Shown here one piece after another: positions 18,449 to 54,580 of a stretch of 64,000 nucleotides of DNA (its first letter is position 1; each line of letters starts with the position of its first letter). The notes below the pieces were generated by a model, which saw only the letters and a list, made by a program, of their open reading frames with translations, did not search any database and had not been told where the DNA came from. Position numbers and translations under genes: made by a program. The DNA is from Rhea pennata (taxonomy: Eukaryota > Chordata > Aves > Rheiformes > Rheidae), in assembly GCF_028389875.1 (NCBI RefSeq), contig NC_084665.1, forward strand, positions 18,570,001-18,634,000, given 5' to 3'.

Positions 18449-21047
18449 GGAAAAAAAAAAAAAAGAATGTAACCTTGTTTGGATATGTTTGTAGATAGAA
18501 GGAGCATTTGTCCAAGGCCTTGGTCTCTTCACCATGGAGGAGCTGCGCTATTCTCCAGAAGGGAATTTGTATACTCGAGGGCCAGGGATGTACAAAATCC
18601 CAGCATTTGGAGACATTCCAGCAGAATTCTATGTGTCTCTTCTCCGTGACTGTCCAAACAGCAAGGCGATTTATTCATCCAAGGTATATCTGCAAACTCT
18701 GCAGGCCTCTTACTGATGCATACTTCTGTGAAGCTGTGTGATATAAAGTAATGATGCACATATCTGAATAATTAACCTTTTTATGCTGGCTTTATTTTGG
18801 AGTCAGGATGCTTTTGCATTCCTTACCAGAAACACAAATATTATCCCTTATAGTAAGGAGGCACATTGCTACCCTGACTGTTCGTAAGAGAGATGTGAAA
18901 TGGCTTTGTTGTGCCAGAGGTTCTGCTCTAACAGAAGTTGCCAGCCTCCCTCTGCACCTCAGTTCCCTTAGTGTCTGCCCCAAAACCTCTGATTGCCCTT
19001 CCCTGGCATCAGAGTCACCATTTGGCTCAACATTTCCAGCAGTATTGTTTCTGAGTTTGCTTATTTTGCTTCCCTAGCGGTTTTCCAGTGCTCACTTCAC
19101 CCTTACAGTTTCATTATTAATCCACGTGTCCTTCAGCTGTTTTCCCTGCAATCAGTGCTGTTCCCTGCAGCTAGTCAGGGCTGCACAGAATGGAGCTAGA
19201 TATACAGCATCAAGAAGTTTGCTTTATTCGTGGTTCAAAGGAGCATTTAGAGAGGACTTCCTATGTCATTATCTGTATATGTCTGGCCTGCCTCCACACC
19301 TGTTCCCTTTTCCCTCCCTCTACAGAAACATCTTCATCAATGAGGAGAACTATTTGGTTGATTAATGCTGATCACAGAACTAAGTAAAGAAGGCCTGGCA
19401 GGGACCTCAGTGTCCTGCACTACACAATACTTGTGTAATCCCTGTGAGAGGCATGCCTGCTGGTTTGCAATGGCCTCCATTGATGGAGCACAGTGCTCTG
19501 GCCAGACAACCCCCACAATGCCTAATCTGAATTCCCTTTGCTACAGTTTCAGCTCCATCCAAAGGGCTGTGGGAAAGGGTTAGTCTCTTTTTTTCTTTAT
19601 AATGACCTTAATGTGTTAGAAAGCTATATTTTCCTACTGTCTTCTCTTCTTTAAATGGACCGATGGTTCTTTTAGCTTAGTTTTTCCTTGCTGATCACTT
19701 CCGGGAGACTGAGGGGTCACAAAGAAGGAATGAGGAATAAGCATAATGGCTGATTGTCACTTCAGACTTGCTCTTCTTTCTGTTAGCCCTGTTAGTTCTT
19801 CCTCGGCCAGGGCTGTTTTGAGCTGTAACCTCACTCTCGCCTGTGCTCTGTCTAGGCTGTAGGAGAGCCTCCTCTGTTCCTGTCTGCCTCAGTGTTTTAT
19901 GCCATTAAAGATGCCATCTACTCAGCAAGGAAGGACTCTGGTGTGACTGAACCATTCAGGCTGGACAGCCCTGCCACCCCCGAGAGGATCCGCAATGCTT
20001 GTGTGGACATCTTCACCAAAATGGTATTGCTTCCAGCTTCATACTCTGCTCCCTTGTTAACCTGCCCCACACCGAGTGTGTTGTGATGGTCACTGTGGCT
20101 CACATCTGCGATTAGGTCAGAGTGGGGAGGCTCTGACCTTAAGCAGCTGGGTTTTAGTTCATGTGTGTTGTCCTTTACTTAACATGTCATCAGATGAGAG
20201 ACATCTCACATTACAAGAAGACCTGCCATATGGTATCACTGAAGTCATATTTCATCCCTACATCCCCCAAGTGCTGTCTGTAGGACAAAAGCACTGACTT
20301 CTTGTCCTGATGCTCCTGACTGTCATCTCTTAGGGAATCACAACTCATATCACATCCTGCATATCCAGCATGTAATTTATTGTCCTGCTCGTGGAGGAAG
20401 AGAGAGGAAAATGTTACTGACAATACTCATTTCTGCTGAATGTTTTGGCACTGGCAGTCACCTTACAGACTGTGGGCTTGATATGAAGGAGTGCAAGATT
20501 TAACCCTGCCACTATCTCCTTCTGACCCCCTCCTCTGTTGGGGTACTCTGGCAGGGCTGTGCAGGTGTGGATCCCTGCAGAGAATCCCATTGATTATGTG
20601 TGACTCAGAAGACATAGCTTTCCGTCCACATGTGCATCCGTCAAGCTTTGGTCAGCTTAAACTCCCCTGTAGTTGACTGCAGAACCTGAATATCTTAGTC
20701 TTTCTCACCTAACACCTGGCTCGCTGTCTCATGAGAAGGACTCATAAAAGACTTTGAGAATTTCCCCAAACTGTTGATCATCTGGCCTTGAACTAGAGCC
20801 AGACATAGACTGCTCACAAAAGTGCCATGAGACAAATACCCTTGTATTTAGAAAGGCTGGGATATGAGCTCAGATCTTCAATGGTACAAAGTCACCTACC
20901 TTAGTGGGAGTACAATAGGGCTCACTGAACACAGGCTGGAACCTCCATGTGTTGCTGCTATTGCTCACTATATTTTTTTTCTCCTCTTCTTTACAGTGCC
21001 CATCTGCCGAGCCAGGAACCTTTAAGCCATGGTCTGTTCGTGTGTAA
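987..21047 (+). CDS. XDH: XDH, xanthine dehydrogenase, 3' half of the gene (19 coding exons, C-terminal 711 residues)
   Basis: XDH oxidises hypoxanthine to xanthine and xanthine to uric acid in the cytosol, passing electrons through two 2Fe-2S clusters and FAD to NAD+. In uric-acid-excreting animals it is the terminal step of nitrogen disposal. The window carries the molybdopterin domain only; the Fe-S, FAD and first part of the molybdenum domain lie upstream. Joined exons: 987-1110, 1656-1775, 3320-3416, 5353-5477, 6315-6448, 7968-8055, 8650-8736, 10208-10399, 10895-11040, 11624-11705, 12370-12465, 13232-13360, 14381-14455, 15321-15373, 16557-16671, 17342-17407, 18495-18683, 19856-20023, 20997-21047. 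All junctions are GT-AG and the phases join into one open frame. Counting from GGFGGKE (Glu802) runs without a gap to GEPP (Glu1261). Glu802, Arg880, Phe914, Phe1009, Thr1010, Gln1040, Ala1079, Gln1194 and Glu1261 equivalents are kept, so this is XDH and not aldehyde oxidase. Bovine numbering is from memory. Confidence 0.97.
1656..1775 (+). CDS. XDH: XDH exon, bovine residues about 660-699
   Basis: Forty codons in phase 0, reading [15 protein letters not shown] and then [11 protein letters not shown]. The acceptor is TTTCCACTAG and the donor GTAAGA. CVGHIIG is a signature of the family. Confidence 0.95.
2782..2804. repeat. Poly-T run, 23 bases, in an XDH intron
   Basis: An uninterrupted T run in the intron before the 3320 exon, about 515 bases from its acceptor. 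Confidence 0.9.
3320..3416 (+). CDS. XDH: XDH exon, bovine residues about 700-731
   Basis: Reads [19 protein letters not shown] then [13 protein letters not shown], and ends with the first base of a Gly codon. The acceptor is TTTCCTAG and the donor GTGAGA. The segment is lysine-rich and less conserved than its neighbours. Confidence 0.93.
5353..5477 (+). CDS. XDH: XDH exon, bovine residues about 732-772
   Basis: Reads [17 protein letters not shown] then [18 protein letters not shown] and MKTQ. It holds the GGQEHFYLE signature and the Gln of STQN, equivalent to bovine Gln767, which contacts the molybdenum cofactor. Phase 0 end at GTACTA. Confidence 0.96.
6315..6448 (+). CDS. XDH: XDH exon with the MGGGFGGKE molybdenum-site loop
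   Basis: Reads [16 protein letters not shown] then [16 protein letters not shown]. The Glu of GGKE is equivalent to bovine Glu802, a purine-binding residue that is Val in aldehyde oxidases. Its presence is a main reason for calling XDH. The exon ends after two bases of a Lys codon at GTAAGT. Confidence 0.97.
7968..8055 (+). CDS. XDH: XDH exon, bovine residues about 818-847
   Basis: Completes the Lys codon and reads [15 protein letters not shown] then [12 protein letters not shown]. The RHPF Arg corresponds to bovine Arg839. The acceptor is CCTTTAACAG and the donor GTATGC. Confidence 0.96.
8650..8736 (+). CDS. XDH: XDH exon, bovine residues about 848-876
   Basis: Twenty-nine codons in phase 0: [19 protein letters not shown] then [10 protein letters not shown]. 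The second half differs most from mammalian XDH, but the length is the same. The donor is GTAAGT. Confidence 0.94.
10208..10399 (+). CDS. XDH: XDH exon with Arg880 and Phe914 equivalents
   Basis: Sixty-four codons. [11 protein letters not shown] carries the Arg equivalent to bovine Arg880, which binds the purine and is Met in aldehyde oxidase. [19 protein letters not shown] carries the equivalents of Arg912 and Phe914, the latter stacking on substrate. It ends at PPEE, with donor GTACAA. Confidence 0.97.
10895..11040 (+). CDS. XDH: XDH exon, bovine residues about 941-989
   Basis: Reads [19 protein letters not shown] then [13 protein letters not shown] and ends within an Arg codon at GTAGGT. 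The acceptor (TTTCTTTGGGAAG) has a weak pyrimidine tract, so this is the least typical acceptor in the gene. The open frame and homology leave no doubt that the exon is real. Confidence 0.95.
11624..11705 (+). CDS. XDH: XDH exon carrying the Cys992-to-Arg position
   Basis: Completes Arg and reads [20 protein letters not shown] then TIPFLNQ. The Arg codon CGC of QNRW sits where mammals have Cys992, one half of the XDH-to-oxidase disulfide. ISFT supplies the Phe1009 and Thr1010 equivalents. The donor GTCTGT is weak. Confidence 0.96.
12370..12465 (+). CDS. XDH: XDH exon, GGTEMGQG segment
   Basis: Thirty-two codons: [20 protein letters not shown] then [20 protein letters not shown] is a molybdopterin-domain signature, and its Gln equals bovine Gln1040. 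The donor is GTAGTG. Confidence 0.97.
13232..13360 (+). CDS. XDH: XDH exon, SPTAAS segment
   Basis: Forty-three codons: [18 protein letters not shown] then [20 protein letters not shown]. The SPTAAS stretch carries the equivalents of Ala1078, Ala1079 and Ser1080 around the cofactor. The acceptor is TTGTTCCCCAG and the donor GTATGG. Confidence 0.97.
14350..14378 (+). repeat. (CT)n and T-run at an XDH splice acceptor
   Basis: A CT microsatellite followed by a long T run, ending in AG at 14379-14380. It doubles as the pyrimidine tract of the exon at 14381. Confidence 0.85.
14381..14455 (+). CDS. XDH: XDH exon, bovine residues about 1092-1116
   Basis: Twenty-five codons: [20 protein letters not shown] then SWEDW. 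The acceptor follows a (CT)n tract and an uninterrupted T run, a very strong but length-variable pyrimidine tract. The donor is GTAAGG. Confidence 0.95.
15321..15373 (+). CDS. XDH: XDH exon, bovine residues about 1117-1133
   Basis: A short 53-nt exon reading [17 protein letters not shown] and two bases of an Arg codon. The acceptor is a T run followed by GCCAG and the donor GTGAGT. It is too short to find without the family match. Confidence 0.94.
16557..16671 (+). CDS. XDH: XDH exon, bovine residues about 1135-1172
   Basis: Completes Arg and reads [16 protein letters not shown] then [20 protein letters not shown]. The [10 protein letters not shown] stretch is near-invariant in XDH. The donor is GTGAGG. 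Confidence 0.97.
17342..17407 (+). CDS. XDH: XDH exon ending in the Gln1194 equivalent
   Basis: Twenty-two codons: [16 protein letters not shown] then AIDIGQ. The last codon is the Gln equivalent to bovine Gln1194, a cofactor contact. The donor is GTAAGG. Confidence 0.97.
18412..18464. repeat. Interrupted A-rich run in an XDH intron
   Basis: Twenty-four A, a GAAAGAAAAGAAAGG spacer and fourteen A. It ends about 30 bases before an XDH acceptor, so it occupies the place where a pyrimidine tract and branch point are normally expected. Confidence 0.9.
18495..18683 (+). CDS. XDH: XDH exon, bovine residues about 1195-1257
   Basis: Sixty-three codons: [20 protein letters not shown], then [13 protein letters not shown] and [15 protein letters not shown]. 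It begins Ile-Glu-Gly where mammals have Val-Glu-Gly. Long A-rich runs (18412-18464) lie about 30 nt upstream of the acceptor TGTTTGTAG, which itself has little pyrimidine tract. Confidence 0.96.
19856..20023 (+). CDS. XDH: XDH exon with the catalytic Glu1261 equivalent
   Basis: Fifty-six codons starting [19 protein letters not shown]. The Glu of GEPP equals bovine Glu1261, the general base of hydroxylation. [17 protein letters not shown] follows. The stretch between YAIKDAI and FRLDSP is about three residues shorter than in cattle and human. The donor GTATTG is weak. Confidence 0.97.
20997..21047 (+). CDS. XDH: XDH terminal coding exon
   Basis: Sixteen codons and a TAA stop: [16 protein letters not shown]. 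The KPWSVRV end is the family C-terminus; the nine residues before it differ from mammals. The acceptor is CTTCTTTACAG. Confidence 0.95.
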   Translation, partial: CPSAEPGTFKPWSVRV

Positions 21048-25759: not shown

Positions 25760-26580
25760 CTATGTCTCTGGTGTGCTGAGGAGGTCTGATAGCAAACTGT
25801 TAGAAAACTGGAAAGCAGAAAGGTCCCAGCGATAAAAATGAGACAGTTGTTTCTTCTGTTTGAGGGACAGTTCACTGAATAGTTGCTCTGATAACCACAT
25901 ATAGGTCCACCGCACCTGGGTGTCAGTGAATTCAGGGAGGTGGATGTCCTTTGGCAACCCAGTCCGATGCAGCAGGTGACTCAGTTCCTGCCTGAGGAAG
26001 CCAAACATCATCACGTAGTCGTACTGGATGAGACAAGGCCAGCACAAGCTGACAAGCGGCTTTGATTCCAGGCTGGCGTTGTACTGTCCCCTGTCTAAAA
26101 CATCCTGAACAAAACTGCTGAAGGAAGGACTGCTGCCCATGCCTTGCATGTAAGCTGAGATCAGCCTCTGGAAAGGGTCCCTGACAAACAGTATTTTGGT
26201 GTAGGAGCCCATCATGGCCTCTATCATGGTCTGATTGAACTTGCTCAGCTGTGTCTGCAGAGCATGCTGCCGAGGGTAGGGAAGCGGCATCAGGACCGTC
26301 ATATTTTCTTTCTCTTCTAGCTTCTCCAAAAGCCACTGCCAGCCCTCCATCCCTGTCGCTGGCACTTGGCAATAGAGGAAGTCCAGCTTGGTGCTGACTC
26401 TCACACTGGAGAGCATGCGGGCTCGCTCCTCGCTGCTCTCCGGTAGCGTGGGCGCTTTGGCTAAGCGGCTGCAGAAAGCTCTGAGCCTCTTCTTCCGAAG
26501 CTGCTGGACATGAAGGAAGGTGTCCAACGTCAGAGAGGGGAACTCCTCTGCCCTGGGAGCCAGGTCGTCTGGAAAACACC
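25760..26580 (-). CDS. Sulfotransferase-like gene, exon 2 (entire luminal domain)
   Basis: An open frame ending at a TAG (25760-25762). The acceptor is CAAAG at 26581-26585 or TTTTCCAG ending at 26569; both keep the frame after the one-base overhang of exon 1, giving an exon start at 26580 or 26568. An internal ATG at 26588-26590 could start an unanchored protein, but that form would lack the Golgi anchor the family needs. Confidence 0.85.
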
Positions 26581-27893
26581 CTTTGAACATGAGAGTTGAG
26601 GAAAACCCAGAGCAGAACTCTGCCCTTAAGCCTGCAGCACCACCCAGGCTGATTTGTACTATGGATCCAGTTCTCCACTAAACTATAAATTTTTGTTCTT
26701 AACTCCTCTCTTTCCCCTCCCTATAACTCTTTCAGTTCAGCTTAACTGAGGTGAGTCCTCCATGCAGCAAATATAGTCAGAGAATTTCTGAGAGGCGTGT
26801 GAGGGGTAAATTGCTTTGTAGATACAAATGCACAATCCCCTTGAATGCTTTGGAAACAGTAATTGTTTAACATCAGAACACATCATATGATCAGCTGCTG
26901 TCAAAGCTATGTTAAACCAGGAGATTATTCTTAAAGACTACTAGTGTTTGAGGAATCCAGATGACATAAGTTCTTGCATCACTTAAATATGTACTTTTTT
27001 CTTATGAAGATAAAAAGCAAACAAAAAGGGAAATACAAATAAAAGCTAGAAGACAAAAAAGCAAATATAAAAGTCTAAAGCAAATAAAAAGCATCGAGGA
27101 CAGTTGCCTTTAATTTGTCAAATTTCAGCTTTGTGCCTTGCTTTTTAATCTTATTATTTTTCATGTGAAGAGGCCATAGTGAGTTTAAAGCTCCCATGAA
27201 TGCAGAGAACAAATGTTTTGCTTGTGGCATTTTTTTATTAGTACCACTTGTCTGCCACATCTGCTTAATGCAGGCATTTGGCAGCCCTGGGGGCGTAGTT
27301 AGTTTCATGGGTACTTGGGAAGTTAAGTATTTTTCACTGATTTGGGCAGGCTTTCACCCAGGGAAGAGCAACACTTTTTATAATTAGGAAACAAACAAGC
27401 AAAACCAGGGAAGGCAGGAGAAACAGGTGCCCGAAGCTATTCAAAGCTGCTTCTCAATTTGCTCAAGCTCTGATTGACAATATTAACTAGTTCCCACGCT
27501 GGCTTGGAGCTGGATTGACAGGACTGAGAAGGATGCATTTTGGGGGGGGTAAAAGAGATGCATTAAGTGCCTGTTTTGCTTGCCTGGTCCCTGACTCCTC
27601 CCCAGGCTGCAGGACCGATCCCTCCGCTCCCCGGCCCTCCGGCAGCGGTTTGCTCCTTGCAGCACCGGTTTCGAGAATCACCTCCGAGCGTTTGAGGCAT
27701 GTTTCCCCCACCCCACCTGTGACAAGGGACCGAGAGCCGCCCCCGCGGGCCACTCTGCCCCACGCCGTGCAAACAGGCTGGGCTGCCGCGCGGGCTCGGC
27801 GTTACCTCCGCGGCGCCCCAGGAGCAGCCGGCAGACCAGCAGGACGGCGGTGGCCAGTGCGGCCGCCAGGAGCAGGCGGGGAAGGAAGCGCAT
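25760..27893 (-). CDS. Divergent carbohydrate sulfotransferase-like protein (CHST8-14 / HNK-1ST family), two exons
   Basis: This is a predicted Golgi type II membrane protein of about 302 residues (298 with the alternative acceptor), in two exons: 27806-27893 and 25760-26580. Family members move sulfate from PAPS to sugar hydroxyls. The N-terminus MRFLPRLLL begins a signal anchor ending before GRRG. The luminal part carries YCQVPATGMEGWQWLL, aligned with the 5'-phosphosulfate loop, then KILFVRDPFQRLISAY, a good 3'-phosphate-binding motif. It ends with SLCWPCLIQYDYV, like the family's CxPCxIxYD block, and a C-terminal KKQLSHFYRWDLSAFQ segment. Three sequons (NMT, NQT, NAS) fit a lumenal domain. 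Oddities: the loop lacks the usual lysines, and the stretch after ISAY is about 30 residues shorter than in CHST11-like enzymes, so substrate and even activity are uncertain. It converges on XDH. I cannot assign it to a numbered CHST. Confidence 0.8.
26581..27805 (-). other. Intron of the sulfotransferase-like gene
   Basis: AT-rich with no exon-like frame matching the family. A further small exon cannot be excluded, but the phase already fits without one. Confidence 0.6.
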
Positions 27894-27965
27894 GTCGTGC
27901 CTGGCAGCGAGGTCCCGCGGCGCTGGGAGCTGAGCACCTCGCTGCACCGGTGACGAGGGACAGGC
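27590..27965. promoter_or_regulatory. CpG island at the 5' end of the sulfotransferase-like gene
   Basis: A block dense in CpG and very rich in G and C covers exon 1 and its flanks, while sequence on either side is AT-rich or CpG-poor. No TATA box is evident. It is the likely promoter of the - strand gene. Open frames across the block on other strands are composition effects. Confidence 0.7.
27806..27893 (-). CDS. Sulfotransferase-like gene, exon 1 (signal anchor)
   Basis: ATG at 27891-27893 (read on the - strand), with a purine at -3. It encodes 29 residues plus one base. FLPRLLLAAALATAVLLVC forms one membrane segment with basic residues on both sides. The donor GTAACG is at 27801-27805. 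The phase matches exon 2 exactly, and the exon lies in a CpG island. The link to exon 2 is inferred from phase, strand, spacing (about 1.2 kb) and topology. Confidence 0.7.
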
Positions 27966-29778
27966 CCAAGGGAAGGATTAGGAAACCTCCTGTGTTTATT
28001 TAAGGAGAAACACACCCAGGACCTGGGTTAAAGTTCTGTTTGGGCAACAGATTGTCTCAGGGGCCCGAGGTGCAAAAGCTGCGTGTAGCTAACACAGCGC
28101 TGCCTCTCGCTCTGCAGCCACAACACCAGCTTTTGGAGGCTTTTTGCCTTCTCTTTCAACATTTGCATAGTCTCCAGCACTCTGTCACTCAGCCCACACC
28201 AGGGCCCTGCAGCTGCCCACGGCCCCATGTGCAGCATCCCATGGAGCGATGGGGGTGGCTGGGGTCCAGTTTGCTTGGGGGGCTATTGCAGCGGGTTGAG
28301 GGTTCAGCCTCCGTGACATTGGAGAGAGTTTCGAGATGGAAGCAGGGCAGGAGAGACACGGTGAAGTGGCACATCCCGAGGGACGTGGCCAGTCTCTGAC
28401 AGCAGGGACTGGAGGCGCTGAGCTACTGCCTGTGTCCTTTCCGATGGGGCTTCTTAAAAATCGTGGCAGAGGCAGTCGTCTGCGTGCTGAAAGCCCCCAG
28501 AGGCCCCAAGCTGAGCAGACGTCCGCCCCCACCGTGCTGCAAAAGGGGTGTATGTGTGTCGTGTGTGGGCGCACATCTCTGCCCTTCCCCAGGGAGCCTC
28601 GTTGGAGACCGCGCACTGTCAGGCAGTGCCACAACCATGGCGAGGCAAAACCACGCTTTGCCTCCATCAGGAGGGATGTGGTCCGGCTGGAAGCCCCAGC
28701 AGCCCCAAACGGGCTGGGATAATGAAAGGAAAAGGGATTGCTACCGAAGAGTACAAACATGCAAGCGTGCATGGTTGGTAGACAAACACGGGCAGGATAT
28801 ACTCATCAGCAGTGTGCAGCAGCCGTGGGTGCAAGTGTGCTGGCATGGGAGAGCATGGTGGCCATGAGTGCCTTCGACCCACCTCCAGGACTCTCCGGAG
28901 GGCAAGGGGCCACCTTGGGCACCTCCTCGCCTGCCTGGGATTGCTCTCCTTTGCTGGTGGAGCTGTGCTTTTTCCACCAGAGGGTGCTCCACACATGAGG
29001 AATCAACACCTCGTCTCCCCGTGGGGCTCTGGGGGTTGGTGGGGAAGCCTGGTTGCACATAACACCTCCCCACTGCAATTTATAAGAACTGAAGTAAAGG
29101 CTTCTATAGTGGCAGATGTATATTTTAAAGTCTGCTGGGTCTCCTTCAAGCCTTGGAGGGCTGACATGACCCAATATGGGCTATAAAACATTTCTCATCT
29201 CTCTGTTGGTACAACGTATTTGTTCTGGGCAGTGAGATTTCCATATTTCTTGCTCTGGAGTGTAAATCTTACAGGGTAGGAGGACATGAAAGACATGAAT
29301 TTTACTTGGTGCTGCAGTGCCATGGTTATTCCTTACAGTGTGATGGGTCTTATGGCAGGAGGTTGCCTGAATGAAGGATAAATATCTACTTAATATAATA
29401 ATTGTGACTTGTTTTATGGTATTACAGTAAAGTTACGGTAGTGCCAACAGCCTCACAGGGCTAAGTCCTGCATAGCTGCAGGATGCAGCAGTTGAAGTTT
29501 CCATCCAAGCCAACATGCCCTAGGGTTTCGACCAGTGCAGGCAGCTGCTGTGCACAGCAGTGCTGTGCACCATCAGTGCTCCAAGCAGCCAAACTCTCTC
29601 TCTGGCCAGGGCTTTCCACCTGCTGCTCCCAAAGCTGCCATTGGGCCAGTGCTGCCTGTCGTGCGTGCAGGGCACTGCGACACAGAGCCCGAGGGGGCTG
29701 CCGCGCAGGAAGGACTGCGAGCAAGAGCCGCTCCAAGTGCCAGGCCAGGACCAGTGGGGCAGGTTCCAGCCCAAGGAT

Positions 29779-29779
<1 letters not shown>

Positions 29780-29807
<28 letters not shown>
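29780..29807. repeat. Poly-T run, 28 bases
   Basis: An uninterrupted T run. No AATAAA lies just before it on the opposite strand, so there is no clear sign of retroposition. Confidence 0.9.
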
Positions 29808-29810
<3 letters not shown>

Positions 29811-31219
29811 CTACTGCAAGCTTAACAAGTAGAAAAGCAGAAGGAACGACGCAAGTCCTCATTGTTAACCAAGTAGCAGCAGCGCTTGCCTTCCTGTATT
29901 GAAACGCAACCCATTGGTGGGGACTGTCCCAGCTGTGGCCCTGCCGAGTGAAGCACAGCTGAAGCTGCGAGGGAGAAGGGCAATTTATTTTTAAGCAGGC
30001 TTGTCAAGGATACAGTCGTAAGGCAAAAGGAAAGAGATGGTCTGTGGCTGAAAAAGAAAAAAGCATCCTACTGCTGAATGCTGAATGCATTGCAAGCAAG
30101 GAGCTTCTGTGAGGATTTATCAGGATGGATCTGTTCAGGGGAACAGGCGAGAAAACCAGTGTCTGCTGGGCCTTCACGACCAGATGCACTGCAAAAAAGA
30201 GAAATGGCTCGGGAGCTGTGGGGGCTGTGAGAGCGGGCTGAGCCCTGGCCACAGCAGGGTGCTGGGGACAGCAGGCCCTGGGGGCGTGGAGCAGAAAGGA
30301 CAAGCTGCTGTGGGGCTGCAGGGCATGAGTGGTCCGTCCCCAAGGTCCTCCTGCCAGCCAGGATGGAGAAATACCCATCTCTGGGTGTGGGTGTCTGAAC
30401 TTCACTTGGAGGCCTGTGTGAAATCTGTGTGGTGGCTTCTACCTTTCTCTTTCCCAGATGTTTGTAGACAATTTAAAATCACTGATAAATTTTCTGTGAT
30501 TGTCTTTCCCGGGCCACTTAGAAGTGACCAAGTCTGTGATGGCAACTGTTGCAGTGAAAGGCTTCTTGCTCCATGTCCGCAGGGGTAGCAGCCTTTGCAG
30601 GTACTGAGGTAGAACCAGGCATGTAAATGCACTTATATCTGCTATTTAATGCGGTTGTGTGAGGGTAGCACTGTGGGTGCTGGGTCTCAAATTTCATTTG
30701 AAGCTTCTTCGGGGGGGGGGGTCCTTACTCGCAAAAACTCTTACTGCCTTGAATGTGAAAAAGATATTCTCTTTTTCTTTAAGTTAGTAAAATGATCACC
30801 TGAAGAAGGATTTCCAGATTTAGCTCCAGGGATCGCTCGAACTGGATTGCTTTGGACTCAGCTTTTTCTCATAGGACAAAAACCCTTTGGAGATATTCTT
30901 ACATGTTGATAAACATCCTCATCTTGAGGCTTCTAGAGTTCCTCCCACACTTCAAAATTTTGCAAAGTATTGTTTTGTGTGACCATGACCTGAAGAAAGC
31001 GGTATGCCGATCCCCATCCATTGTTCCTCCTCGCGCTGGCCGCTGCCGAACGCACGTGTGCGCGGAGGAAGGCCGAGCATGTTGTCTCCTTGTGGGAATG
31101 TGAACTTTGTTAAGTGATGGCAAATACTGCCTAATTCAGCGAGGGATATTTTTACATTCTTCATAAAGGAAGAGCAGATAGGAAGCCTACTTTTTCTCCC
31201 ATTTCTTGTTTGGAAGGCT

Positions 31220-31271: not shown

Positions 31272-32139
31272 TTCAAAATCTACATTTTGAATGCTTTAAA
31301 GTAGTAAACACTGGGAAGGTTGAGTAGTCACTCTGCAGCAATGTGGCAATAGCCAGAGGTTTAGCATATTCTTCTACTCCAAGAGCCTCACTTAAATTGC
31401 AAAGCATCTCCTACGCTTAGAGATGCTAGGCCAGAAACCAGAGTGATGGGGTTGTTGGCTAATTGGCAGCAAATTGCGCCACATGGAGGCAGATTCCTCA
31501 AAATAAAACATAAAAGCTTAGAGGAATGTGGGTATCTGTGAATAAACCGGGTACGCTGCAAGCTGAGAAAAGGGCCTTTTCTCAGCCTCAGCTGCCAATT
31601 CTTGGAGCTTGTTTCTCTGTGCTCACCACCAGCACTCGAGGCAGTGTGAGGAAGCTGCCCACGCAGTTCTCTGACATAGACTTGCTCCAGCCCTGGTGAG
31701 GTGCTTACAGGGTGACCCTCATCGCACAGGGCTGCTGAGGACGGGGCTCCCTGCTCCACGTTAGGGTTTGCCAGGAGCTTCGCCAACAGGAGATACCATG
31801 GTGCGAGGACGTGACAGAGATTTACCACCCCAGGGCTGCGTGAGCTGGGGCGCTTCTGTAAATATCAGCTTTTGTGGTCCTTTAAGAACCTTAGCCAAAA
31901 ACATCAGCTCTTGGCTATTTTGGGTGTTGGAGGATGCAGGATTTTCTCATGCTTTGCTCCTGCCAGCTGCAGGTAGCAGTGAGATGTATGGGCATGCTGT
32001 GGGGCGCCCGGGCCACCCTGCTCCTCCAGCATCCCCATCCAGGGGTGCTGCCCACCCACCCACGCCAGCGGCAGGTTGGAAATGAGGAAATTTTGCCTGC
32101 TTCTGCTTTGGACCGAGGGCGCCTGGCTGGTTGTGCACT

Positions 32140-32300
32140 GATCACCGGGGCCCAGAGACCCCGGAGTGAGCGCGGCGCGCATTTCCGAGCTGCACCCCAT
32201 TTTGGTGCACTTGCCCAGCGTCCTGCGGCCCGGACGGCCCCCGCGGCATCGGGAATCCCCGCAGCTGCAGCCCACCGCGGTGCGCTCGGCGTCGGATGAA
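32140..32300. promoter_or_regulatory. Orphan CpG-rich block 1
   Basis: Dense CpG in a short block (GAGCGCGGCGCGC, GCGGCCCGGACGG and CGCGGTGCGCTCGGCGTCGG), far from any recognised first exon. It is followed by a purine-rich GGAGAGGAGAGGAAAGGAAG stretch with ETS-like GGAAG cores. It could be a promoter of an unseen noncoding RNA or an enhancer. Confidence 0.45.
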
Positions 32301-32589
32301 GTTACGTAGAGAGGAGAGGAGAGGAAAGGAAGTTCTCGCTGCATCCCGGAGCAGGGCAGGTAGGGCGGCGTTTGGAGCAGTTGCACGGCTCAGGCGCTTC
32401 CTGTTTTCCTCCCGGCAGGAGCCGTGATTGTCACTTATTATTCAGCTCCTCATCCTGGGAGGAAGACGGTATCGGGCTGTGCTGGGGCAGCAGGATGTTT
32501 ATGTGGTAGGCTGAGTTAAGGTACTGCTTTTAATACTCCCCGGAGCAGAGTCATTGGGGGAAACGTACATTTTGGGTTTTTTAAGAAGG

Positions 32590-32910
32590 GCTGTAAACAT
32601 CCCCAGCGCTTCGCCATCGCCACGTGGGCCGCGTGGCTTCCTGCCAGGCCGGAGTGGCGCGTGTCTAGGGCTGTTGCACCGGGTTTCACCAGGTGCCGTG
32701 CAAACTACGGGCAATCGAGCGAGCACTCGTATAGTTAATGATGCTAGATTGAGAGGCTTTGGGCCCAGCGCGGGCTCCGGCGGCTCAGCCGCAGCAAAGA
32801 CCGGTTCTCGCTGGGCAGAGCATGTTGCAAGGCGAGGGAAATCAGTGGGAGAGCTGGCAGGTCGGGCAGTGCCGGCGGCAGGGGGCAGCTCCCGTGGCAC
32901 CCGGCGAGCA
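32590..32910. promoter_or_regulatory. Orphan CpG-rich block 2
   Basis: A second CpG-rich stretch about 300 bases after block 1, with long open frames on both strands that look compositional. No domain or splice-consistent exon is recognised. Confidence 0.4.
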
Positions 32911-34542
32911 GGCCCTGCAGACCCACCTTTCGCCCTTCCTTCCTGCTCTGCACTAATCCCCTCTGGCAGGTATTTTGCTGGTCTGTTTATAGGATGAAAG
33001 TGTCTCCTTGCCGCCCATTCCTCCCCCAGCTCAAGCAGCTGAGCATAAAGCTCCACACCAACCGCTGCTGTTCCTCACAGCTCCTTCCCACTTTGCCTTT
33101 TCAAAAGCTAAGGCCATTACAGCTGTTCTCTCTCTGCAGTAGCAGGTGGGACTCACAGAAAAAAAGTCATGTGTGAGTGTGTAACTGAAGGTTGCATCCC
33201 AGTCCGTGCATGCTGGGCAAGGGTGCACGTCGGGACTTACGGAGAAGACCTCCGCCCCAGCAGTTCCTCACCGAGCTTCTCTCTACAGCCCAGATAGTGT
33301 AGGATTTTTTTACTGCCAAGCATTTATCTAAACAAATTCCAGCCTTGCTTTATGTCCAGAGTGCTTTCCAGCTTCTCCCAGCATTCCTTGGCTGCCCTCG
33401 GGCCAAGCGCAGCTGTGCTGCGTTATAGAGCTGCCATCTCCCACCCAGGGGAGATCTCACCTGCTTTTCTGAGGAAACGCAGTAATCAAGCTCATGGAGT
33501 ACTCACAGCTATTAATTTTGCTCCTTGCATTGCTTCACCCTAGGTGACTTTTAAAATGCAGCAGCATTGTGTGGGCCTGGAAGAAAGCAAAAGCAGCTGC
33601 AGACAAGCAAAGCAGGCAGTGCTAACGTGTGCGTGGTAGTCGGGGAAACCCAGATCTTCAGGTTTTCTTCCTCATTTATTTCCAATGTGAAGCAAGTTAT
33701 CTTCCTGTCCTAGCTACTCTGTTCCTTAATAATACGTATGCTTTAGGGTATAACTGTCAGCTGCCTTTTCTGTGTTAGGTTCCTGACCCTAAGTAATTCC
33801 TGTGGTATCTGCTTATTTATTTCATTCAGACACTTACCGGAGTGCTGCTCGTTTGGGGACTTGAGCGACAAGGAGACCCATCAGCTGCTGGCGCAGCGCT
33901 GCTGGAGGCTGGTGAGGAGGCTCTGATGGCCCATCCAGACTGCGCAGCAACACTGCTTGGACTGCTCAGAGTTTGAGTCCAAAATGTTTCCAGACTTCCT
34001 GGAAAAGGGATAGTGGTAGTGGGACGATAGGGAAAAAAAAAATCACTCAACTGTGAAACATCCAGCCCTGGAGCTGGACTTTGGCCTTCCTCCTGCAATG
34101 CTGGAAAGGAGGTGCTGTGGGAAGATGGGTAAAGTGAGGTGGAGACTGCTGCCGGGCAGGAGATGCGTGGGCTCACATCTCCCGGGAACTCGCTTTCCTT
34201 TCTGGGCTTCAGCTTCCTCTCTGCAGATTGGGGAACCCCAGGACCGTGGGCGAGTGCATACCGGGGACCCAGTCACCGCGGTGGAGGAAGCCAGGAGCCC
34301 CCAGGGACAGGGTCACCGCAGAGGTGCCCCCGGCAGGTCCCATCCCTGAGGTGCCGGCACCGCCCCCGCACTCCCCTCCGCCTGGGCACCGCAGCCGGCT
34401 GCAAGCCGAAACCCCCGGGCTCCGGTGGCACGCTCCTGCAAGCAGCGCACATACCTGAAATGTTTTCCTCATCGTTGCTAGGGACAAGCAGCAAGGTTAA
34501 AACAACCCCAAACCATGTTTTTTTTTTCTTTTTTTCCCTTCT

Positions 34543-38200: not shown

Positions 38201-40949
38201 TTTATAAATGTCCTTGAGCTGGTTTCAGGTGTGTGAGTACTAGTCCAGTGCACATACAGCTAAGAAAAGAGCAGCACTTTCATTCTCCAGGAGGCTCTGA
38301 AAAAAAGCGTCAGCTTTCAGACTTCAGCAGGAACCATGCAGCTCATCTTGCAATTGCAATTCTTCTGTTTCCTGCATATTGTGTTAAAACATTATTTGCA
38401 GGGACCGTAGCCATGCTCTAATTTCATTCTTGTCTTTGTCCCCAAGACTTCTTGTATGCATCTTCTTATGAAGGGAAGCCAAATATTTTCCCTCCAGAAG
38501 GTGCTCTTTCAGGTAATGGTAAATATGAAAACAAAACTAATTTTTTTCATGTTTTCTTCTGGAAATAGTGGTAGCAGGGTATGAGTTAGCAGAGTGTGAT
38601 CTGTTTTGTCTTAATTTGTGGTGAGGTACCAAAACTCCAGGACAGTCCCATTTTTACTGTGCTCCTAGGTACTTCTAGGAACATCTTAAAATATGACATT
38701 GTGTCAGATTGCAAGCTGAAGGTTTCTGCATACTTAGCCAAGGCTTGGATTTTTTTTCCAGGGTGTCTTTCGGAGCAGTAGTAAGTGATCTGTCCTGTAG
38801 CAGCCTTCTCTGGGCTTTATTTGCGTAATTAGCCATCTAACAGCAATTGTTCTTTGTTGGCAATGTGGGAAACAAAGGCAAATACCCCGGCCCTGTCTGA
38901 GGAAAGTATAACTCTGGCAGAGCTTAAAATGCAAATGTTCTCAGGCCAGCTGAGCTGTGAAGGCTGCCATATCCCTGGCACGGGAAGGTACTAGCGTCTC
39001 CAGTTTATAACTCACACTGGTTTACAGGTCCCTTGGATTTAGGGGGGAGGGGCTCTAAAACTCACCAGCACTAACAACAAGCTAAAATAAATAGGTGTAC
39101 AAACTGCTGCCAGGGGCTCACAACCAGCAGGGCTGTACAGGAGACGGATGCAGCTGTGGGGAGGGGGCTGCATGCCGATAACTTGCTCAAGGAGAGAATG
39201 TGAAAAATGGGAGATAAAACCCCATGCTCAATACTAAAAGCAGGCAGTAGTTATGAGATGCTAAACAGAACAGAATAACTGAAGGGACTTAAAAATACAA
39301 TGGATGGGAAGTTTCCTCTGGCCAAAAGCCTGGGCAGATTGCAAGTGTGGCAGGGTTTTGATTTCAGCAGCGCTTTTCAGGGGCTGAATATTAGATCACA
39401 TTGCAGATATGGCTTAGGAGTCAAATGCCTGTTTGTGGGATTAACCCTTGGATCCAAATTACAGCGTTACCCTCAAATGCAAGCTCAGGCCCCCAATGTG
39501 GAAATGTTGATCTTTCAAATGCTTTAGTTGGAGGGACATGGTTCACAAGGGTACTCAACATTAATAATGTTAATAATTCAAACTCAGGCTTCACATGCAG
39601 GTTACAGGCTGCAAAACTTGCCTCCCTGGGAGGTCTGTCCAGTGGGGACCATTCCCGCACTGAAATCGGGGTGCTGAAGGCAGCTTGGGTCAAGCAAGGC
39701 ACGGGAAGTGCTGGCGGGCAGCAAGGGAGCAGCCCTCGGGCTGTTAATGACGAATGAGCTCATTCAGGAGTGTGGGAGCAGTGTCGCGGGGGAGCGGAAA
39801 GGGTGGAAAGAACGACTGTTCTTGCGCACTTTTGTTTATCAATGGCTGAACTCAAAAGGCAGGATACAACTCTTTGGAGCCCGAGAAGGTCTCTGTTTTA
39901 CACAAACACCTACCTGGGAAGGATGCAAACCCAAACTCCACTACTAAAAATATTCAGCCAAACAGAGAGATTTTTTCCAAAACAGAATTCCGGAAATTCT
40001 AAATTTGGTGGTGGTCTATTGGGGGAGCACAACTGCTTTATTTTTTTCCCTTAAGGCAAGTGGGAACAATGTAAATACAGAACACTACTCATCCCGTCCC
40101 CTCCTCTGTGCTGCCGTTCTTTGAAGAGCCCATCAATAACCCTGTAGCCATCAGCTTCCCAAGAAGGCGGACCTGTCGCAAAAACAGGAATCCCTTATCG
40201 GGTGACAGGAAATTCTATTTTTACACGAAGTTCAGATTAAAAGGGAAAGATACGCACAGGAGTTCCGGGCTAAAATTAAACCTTTAGCTTCTCCCCCAAA
40301 GGCTGGATCTTGGTGCTCTCCTGGTTGAGAAAGCCGGGGTGCACTCCAGGAGAGATCCTGCTGCTCTTGGTGGGTTTTGCCTTGCTCCAGTGCTTTTCTC
40401 CTCAGTATCTTCTCAGAGATTCTGAGTTTCTGAATGTGCCATGAGCAGCCCTGTCCAGACCCGAGCCCAAGCCTGGTCCGTGGCAGCCAATTGCCCACGT
40501 GGGTAAGCATTCAGGCAAACATTTCCTTGTCAAAGATGTTCAGTCAGAAATGATACCTCTTTAGAGGCATCTTGCCCAAGTGTCTATCAACCTAAGCATC
40601 AAACACTAGTAATAACCCAGATTTCTGCTCAGGGTCAGAACGGGAGGGAGTCGCAAGGCAGCCTCCTGGCTGGCCCTAGTTCGAGGGATGAAACATATCT
40701 ACCCAGGAGGCCTCCTCTTTCCTCCATCCACACAGCCCCCCTCAGCCTCTTCCAGCCAAGGGGTGCTTTCGGGTTGTCCTAGTCAGATGCTCCACCATCA
40801 CCAGCTCCCAGTCTGGCATCCCAGGGTGGCTGAGACAGGCTCATCCCGGCTTGGCAAGGGGCTGCATTTTGAGCATTGCCGGACGAAGTGCTGCAGGCTC
40901 CTTGATGAGGATTTAAGCCCTTGGCCACAACCCCCCAGTCTGCTCCTTT

Positions 40950-41250
40950 TCTGCAGTCCCACCCTGAAAAGCAGCTGCCAAGACAGCATCGCGGCTGCAG
41001 CATTCGGCACCGCTGTGACACACGCGCGGGACGCGACCCCTTTACGGCCGCGCTCGCGCTCTTCAGCGGCTGGTGGCTCTGCCGGCTGGGGCCAGGCCCT
41101 GGCATCGCCCCCGAGGCTCGGCTCCACCGGGCTCTCCAGCGCTGCAGTGCTTGGGCCAGATGCACGGCTGCCGCTGCCTGCAAAGGGGGCACCACCGGCA
41201 CACTGCCAGCAAGCCTGCCAACCAGGCGGAGAACAGCTTGCTTCAGGCTG
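40950..41250. promoter_or_regulatory. Orphan CpG-rich block 3
   Basis: Contains ACACGCGCGGGACGCGACC and TTTACGGCCGCGCTCGCGCT within otherwise CpG-poor sequence. A 207-codon frame crosses it (40688-41311, +), but its composition is low-complexity and resembles no family known to me. Confidence 0.4.
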
Positions 41251-54052: not shown

Positions 54053-54580
54053 TCACTCTGTTATTTTCCTCTTGGATGGAGGGAGGAGATGGGAAGGAAG
54101 CTCATTTGGCAGCTCATGACCCTCCAACTTTACTTTAATGAGATGATTCGCCAAGGCAAACTCCTCATCATCCAGCATGCCATCTTTGTCAATGTCAGCC
54201 AGTTTCCATATCTTGCCCAGGACAGTGTTGGGCAGCTTAGACCTTACCATCTCCTTCTTTGCATTGGCACCAGTTATTTTACCATCAACAGGCGAGAGCG
54301 TGTAGAAAATCTCATCATACATAGGCTTGTCCCTGGCTACCACCCACTCAGCATCATCGATCCCTTCACCAGCGCCTTCACCATAGCCGTGGCCAAATGG
54401 ACCATGCAGGGTGCCCTCGAAGGCTCCGCCCTTCACCATCTGGGTAGGCCGCTGTGACTCCTCCTGGCGTACAAGCACCATGAGCTGGGCAATGTCATTG
54501 GCCAGCATGTCTTCCACTGTCTCCAGTAGCTTGCTCTTCAGGGGCTGGAACTTGCTAAAATCCTGAGCCTGCAACTGATC
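54053..54580 (-). CDS. EHD3: EHD3 terminal coding exon: linker and EH domain
   Basis: 175 codons and a TGA stop (54053-54055). It starts [20 protein letters not shown] after the CACTTTAAG acceptor and includes [12 protein letters not shown]. The GPF motif of the linker can dock on the EH domain in the EHD2 structure. The EH domain runs from about [11 protein letters not shown] to [10 protein letters not shown]. Confidence 0.97.
   Translation of the reverse strand, partial: DQLQAQDFSKFQPLKSKLLETVEDMLANDIAQLMVLVRQEESQRPTQMVKGGAFEGTLHGPFGHGYGEGAGEGIDDAEWVVARDKPMYDEIFYTLSPVDGKITGANAKKEMVRSKLPNTVLGKIWKLADIDKDGMLDDEEFALANHLIKVKLEGHELPNELPSHLLPPSKRKITE

Follow-up and report, generated by a model that had tools for sequence, protein, structure and literature searches.

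A divergent CHST-family gene between XDH and an EHD gene of Rhea pennata: a probable pseudo-sulfotransferase

The window, a stretch of 64,000 nucleotides from the genome of Rhea pennata, contains a gene of the CHST family whose product is probably a pseudo-sulfotransferase, that is, a protein that would have lost PAPS-dependent sulfate transfer and kept the fold (rough probability 0.65). The PAPS-loop lysine, the nearby basic residues and the HW pair are all absent, and catalysis is therefore unlikely; combined with a scaffold that is largely kept, these losses favour a non-catalytic role. The preliminary description of the gene had treated it as a sulfotransferase with a glycan substrate and missed the loss of the motifs. 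It thus needs one large correction, as the gene is a sulfotransferase paralogue but its product is probably no sulfotransferase.

The window gene is encoded on the minus strand, where joining the donor at 27806 to the acceptor at 26568 preserves the frame in phase 1 and gives 298 codons (Table 1). An alternative acceptor at 26580 is likewise in frame and would give a protein of 302 aa, but by eye the adjacent pyrimidine tract is better at the predicted splice site at 26568 (TGTTTTCCAG) than at 26580. The Pfam profile PF03567 matches the protein with an E-value of 6.3e-23 and 82.6 bits over profile positions 4-252 of 252, the curated cut-off for Sulfotransfer_2 being 22 bits. The GC content of the gene at codon positions 1, 2 and 3 is 0.56, 0.40 and 0.70 in a window of GC 0.44, and exon 1 falls within a CpG-rich bin (27601-27900, GC 0.72, o/e 0.81), five of the 213 bins of the window being CpG-rich. 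With splice sites predicted from the sequence, the window gene is a real two-exon gene, and the in-frame join and the full-length Pfam match bear out the compact two-exon CHST-like gene first described. A putative anchor and the three sequons of that description are also present: residues 7-25 form a hydrophobic stretch (the best 19-residue segment starts at residue 7, with a Kyte-Doolittle mean of 2.57) and N-glycosylation sequons occur at N118, N141 and N193. The protein is predicted to be a type II membrane protein, probably of the Golgi.

Table 1. Predicted exons, intron and motif sites of the window gene (positions in the window)
Feature	Position	Strand	Remarks
Exon 1	27806..27893	-	Predicted; 29 codons and 1 base, comprising the start codon, a short cytoplasmic tail and the membrane anchor
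Intron, phase 1, GT...AG	26569..27805	-	Read from the sequence; 1237 bases; GTGTTTTCCAG just before the acceptor
Exon 2	25760..26568	-	Stem and complete Sulfotransfer_2 domain (PF03567), stop codon included
Degenerate 5' PAPS-binding loop, residues 99-108, PATGMEGWQW	26333..26362	-	PKxxCxNWKR in the family; the invariant K is A100
Retained 3'-phosphate-binding motif, residues 159-169, RDPFQRLISAY	26150..26182	-	PXXRXXS satisfied
Former site of the HW pair, E197 S198	26063..26068	-	H and W in 8/8 paralogues
Retained LCxPC motif, residues 204-208, LCWPC	26033..26047	-	From the paralogue alignment

The genome that contains the window (1.27 Gb in 180 contigs) was surveyed for PF03567 and gave 14 matches. 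Apart from the window gene these are seven full-length CHST domains, a pair of exons from a further CHST, three exons of HS6ST type and one of HS2ST. The paralogue alignment consists of the window protein, the seven full-length domains and CHST10, which was assembled from three exons and of which two exons count among the 14 matches; the three HS6ST-type exons and the HS2ST exon were omitted as more distant. The HS2ST exon and one HS6ST exon were checked against the PDB, and the other two are called HS6ST-type by resemblance.

The 5' PAPS-binding loop reads PKxxCxNWKR in seven of the eight paralogues and PKVGNTQWKK in CHST10, and the loop of the window protein departs from every one of them at seven or eight of the nine positions that follow P99. 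The lysine and the tryptophan of the loop are present in all eight paralogues, with A100 in place of the lysine in the window protein, whose residues 91-111 include no K or R. The HS2ST exon of the same genome, which matches PDB 3f5f and 4ndz, also carries the PAPS-loop lysine, and a study of PF03567 describes it as the highly conserved PSB residue of the seed (PMC11625862). The HW pair that precedes LCxPC in 8/8 paralogues is E197-S198 in the window protein. The 3'-phosphate motif, defined in the same study as PXXRXXS for PF03567 (PMC11625862), is found as P161-F-Q-R-L-I-S167. The Sulfotransfer_2-type motifs of the preliminary description therefore stand in part, the 3'-phosphate motif being there and the 5' PAPS-binding motif missing. 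Four invariant cysteines (62, 96, 205 and 208) are also kept and are the sole cysteines outside the anchor.

Across the 36 columns that are invariant in the eight paralogues the window protein keeps 25 (69%), and the losses are K100A, K107Q, H129R, L149M, K172G, H197E, W198S, G216M, E219G, D224E and Y284F, of which the loss of the histidine at column 129 is uncertain because H131 lies two residues away. Leave-one-out counts for the other rows range from 36/36 to 36/46, the lowest being CHST10 at 36/46 (78%); L007, a paralogue with intact motifs, stands at 36/42 (86%). The overall loss is only somewhat above that of the most divergent active paralogue, and on this alignment it is the location of the losses that stands out. 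The invariant K and H columns are lost in five of six cases vs six of 30 for the others (Fisher p 0.006, or p 0.04 with R added), the classes having been picked post hoc. In addition, the window protein has 12 residues from the serine of the 3'-phosphate motif to the next invariant phenylalanine, where the eight paralogues have 37 to 47.

The intact R and S of the 3'-phosphate motif would also suit a protein that is still active, in which a basic residue in another part of the protein binds the sulfate of PAPS, or PAPS serves a different reaction. H131 could act as the base in such an enzyme, and Mt Stf0 is reported to carry alanine and arginine at its PSB, which means that variation in the loop is possible (PMC11625862). 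However, the window loop contains no K or R whereas Stf0 has arginine, the HW pair is gone and the segment after the 3'-phosphate motif is 25-35 residues shorter; continued activity is regarded as fairly unlikely. The loss of catalytic residues from a kept scaffold could also have produced a secreted or surface lectin-like protein, which would bind glycans beyond the Golgi, independently of any partner enzyme. This role is non-catalytic too and overlaps with the pseudo-sulfotransferase favoured here. The short basic tail and the hydrophobic stretch could then be a cleaved signal peptide, but members of the CHST family are uncleaved type II Golgi proteins and the loss of basic residues argues against the binding of sulfated chains at the old site, which leaves the lectin-like protein unlikely.

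Neutral decay was simulated by mutating a CHST8-like domain, with 400 frames for each level of loop change and on the assumption of a transition bias and of 5% indels. Open frames were left in 106/400 cases at one of nine loop changes and in 2/400 at three, and in 0/400 at six as well as at eight. In the window protein seven of the nine loop residues are unlike those of CHST8, yet its frame is open and most of its scaffold is kept. Selection therefore probably preserved the frame during or after the loss of the loop; the simulation models fully neutral decay only, as distinct from relaxed or positive selection or a recently ended function. From the retention of the scaffold in one genome, and not from dN/dS, we infer purifying selection on the window gene. 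The very long branch of the protein (7.4 to 7.8 changes per column across trees) and its odd residue make-up would fit a decaying or recently dead unitary pseudogene with a frame that is open by chance. Against this are the 298 open codons, the GT/AG splice sites, the invariant columns kept and the difference in GC between codon positions 3 and 2 (0.70 vs 0.40), as well as the fall of simulated open frames to 2/400 at three motif changes and 0/400 at six, with a recent loss of function lying outside the simulation. A pseudogene is accordingly judged to be improbable.

Working sequences of the human CHST8-14 domains, used here and in all comparisons with human members below, pair one to one with seven loci of the genome, none of which is the window gene. 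These are the counterparts of CHST8 (L005, 84%), CHST9 (L003, 88%), CHST10 (the joined exons, 94%), CHST11 (L002, 96%), CHST12 (L004, 89%), CHST13 (L001, 62%, with a tree support of 90/94 and CHST11 as the best single match at 74%) and CHST14 (L006, 71%). L007 is an eighth paralogue, without a match above 40% among human CHST8-14, and the window gene is the ninth, at most 31% identical to any of them. The window protein is 24-31% identical to the eight paralogues over the aligned domain, and, among the best candidates scored, its above-chance matches elsewhere in the genome are 25-34% identical over parts. No second close copy of the window gene was found among these best candidates (the tally again being a lower bound), and a recent retrocopy or duplicate was rejected.

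As the ninth paralogue, with an identity of at most 34% over part of its length, the window gene is not a misplaced numbered CHST. The preliminary description was right to call it a divergent CHST-family paralogue that matches no numbered member, since all seven human-type genes are placed elsewhere in the genome and no clear orthology to a known CHST with a known locus was found in it. A relocated orthologue of a numbered CHST, i.e. a fast-evolving CHST8/9, is very improbable in spite of best-scoring genome matches to CHST8 and CHST9 (30 and 31% over parts) and a place beside CHST8/9 at 87/84, not starred, in a 16-row tree, as the genome holds a separate CHST8 and CHST9 along with the other numbered members.

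The nine-row tree leaves the window protein unplaced on a branch of 7.8 changes per column. In the 16-row tree, to which the human rows were added, the smallest starred set that includes it comprises eight rows (96/96), with CHST11-14 falling on the other side. The tree program warns on the placement of this row, with its very long branch and odd residue make-up. The groups for the AU tests were named before any tree for the nine-row set and after the nine-row tree for the 16-row set. A sister relationship to CHST12 or CHST14 was rejected (p 0.004 with nine rows, 0.010 with 16), as was one to CHST11/13 (p 0.010, 16-row test only). The tests leave as possible sisters L007 (p 0.40 with nine rows, 0.215 with 16), CHST10 (p 0.43 and 0.075) and CHST8/9 (p 0.39, nine rows).

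L007 is encoded on the minus strand at about G000:C5:16819160-16820427 (16.82 Mb) and has 314 aa when a likely short first exon is included. This exon of 94 bases carries a membrane anchor and is followed by a phase-1 intron of 323 bases, and exon 1 of the window gene has 88 bases and also ends in phase 1. The scan for the first exon of L007 gave three candidates, two of them donors of one start codon that are both in phase 1 and the third, in phase 2, roughly 9.5 kb more distant. In CHST8, 9, 11 and 13 the acceptor ahead of the domain exon is, by eye, in phase 0. The phase-1 intron common to the window gene and L007 therefore hints that the two extra genes descend from one ancestor, a kinship that the trees leave undecided. 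L007 is itself an under-described CHST paralogue and may be the nearest relative of the window gene.

The neighbours of the window gene are those given in the preliminary description. XDH, one exon of which matches xanthine dehydrogenase structures with an E-value of 3e-28, is on the plus strand; the end of its coding sequence, near 21047, reads FKPWSVRV, which is typical of XDH. The EHD gene, which lies on the minus strand like the window gene and ends at 54053, matches EHD4 (E-value 6.6e-80) and is presumably EHD3, a name that follows the human gene order. To our knowledge human EHD3 and XDH are neighbours without a sulfotransferase between them, and mammals are not known to carry such a gene there. 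Three other stretches of the window were noted. A CpG-rich stretch of 900 bases between the window gene and the EHD gene (32101-33000), in which no gene was identified, could be the promoter of an unlisted transcript. Another CpG-rich bin lies within the XDH-EHD interval (40801-41100, GC 0.64, o/e 0.62), next to long open frames that overlap and occupy the two strands, and both-strand open frames at 29461-29825 run into a homopolymer (poly-A/T) and possibly are an old retro-inserted piece. Scans of the 64-kb window detected neither a tRNA nor an Rfam family at its gathering score.

Relatives were also sought outside the genome. In a copy of the PDB no relative of CHST8-14 was found, either by phmmer with the window protein (best E-value 0.93) or with a profile of the seven paralogues other than CHST10 (best E-value 1.3), both best matches being likely due to chance. 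NCBIfam gave no match to the window protein, bacterial and archaeal genomes gave 16 pattern stretches with 0 confirmed relatives, viral contigs gave one stretch with 0 confirmed, and phage records gave no match. Among the matches listed in the open-access PMC literature, at title and abstract level, nothing was found on this gene under the locus, CHST evolution or pseudo-sulfotransferases. CHST16 is a 6-O-sulfotransferase, a member of another family. Bird and reptile annotation databases may already carry the window gene under a '-like' name.

If the protein is a pseudo-sulfotransferase, its likeliest mode of action, by analogy with Fam20A and Fam20C, would be to pair with L007, a CHST8/9-type enzyme or another active paralogue, the partner being a guess. 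Alternatively, by the same kind of analogy, it may bind the glycan substrate of that enzyme, and either way it would tune sulfation. The wider proposal, that an old CHST branch absent from mammals holds a maintained Golgi pseudo-sulfotransferase whose dedicated role is to regulate an active enzyme, perhaps L007, or to assist its assembly as a partner, is tentative and rather doubtful; if true, it would be a parallel to Fam20A in glycan sulfation. According to one study, the HS2ST variant H142A seemed folded and bound PAPS with an activity below 1% (PMC6094399), a result on a relative and not on the window protein. Glycan sulfation is normally read from the active CHST enzymes, and a CHST-fold protein that transfers no sulfate would, if confirmed, add a layer of regulation or glycan binding to their list. 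The gene would be missed in human and mouse data if, as far as is known, mammals lack it, and the automatic label 'carbohydrate sulfotransferase-like' would mislead on its activity.

Among the closest known systems are CHST8 and CHST9 (GalNAc-4-O-sulfotransferases 1 and 2), with which the window protein has in common the domain, the four cysteines, the LCxPC motif and the 3'-phosphate motif, and of whose family the type II anchor is typical. Unlike them, the window protein has lost the PAPS-loop lysine and the HW pair and has 30 residues fewer after the 3'-phosphate motif, and its gene encodes a short stem and has a phase-1 rather than a phase-0 intron before the domain exon. L007 resembles the window gene in having no close counterpart among human CHST8-14, a likely short membrane-anchor first exon and a phase-1 intron, but it differs in its intact PKVGCSNWKR and IHW motifs and is 24% identical over the aligned domain. 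SULT4A1 is a cytosolic orphan sulfotransferase whose fold is kept in vertebrates; according to one account it has no demonstrated sulfonation and the crystallised protein bound no PAPS, and sulfate-dependent effects in yeast are given as a hint of activity (PMC11275347). It differs from the window protein in being cytosolic, highly conserved in sequence and in possession of the PAPS motif residues (PMC11275347). SULT4A1 is an example of how a missing measured activity can stay disputed, and by analogy calls for caution with the window protein. Fam20A is reported to be a pseudokinase of the secretory pathway in which a critical residue is missing and which enhances Fam20C, its active paralogue (PMC4421793). 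It differs from the window protein in being a kinase by fold and in having a proven partner, whereas the partner of the window protein is guessed.
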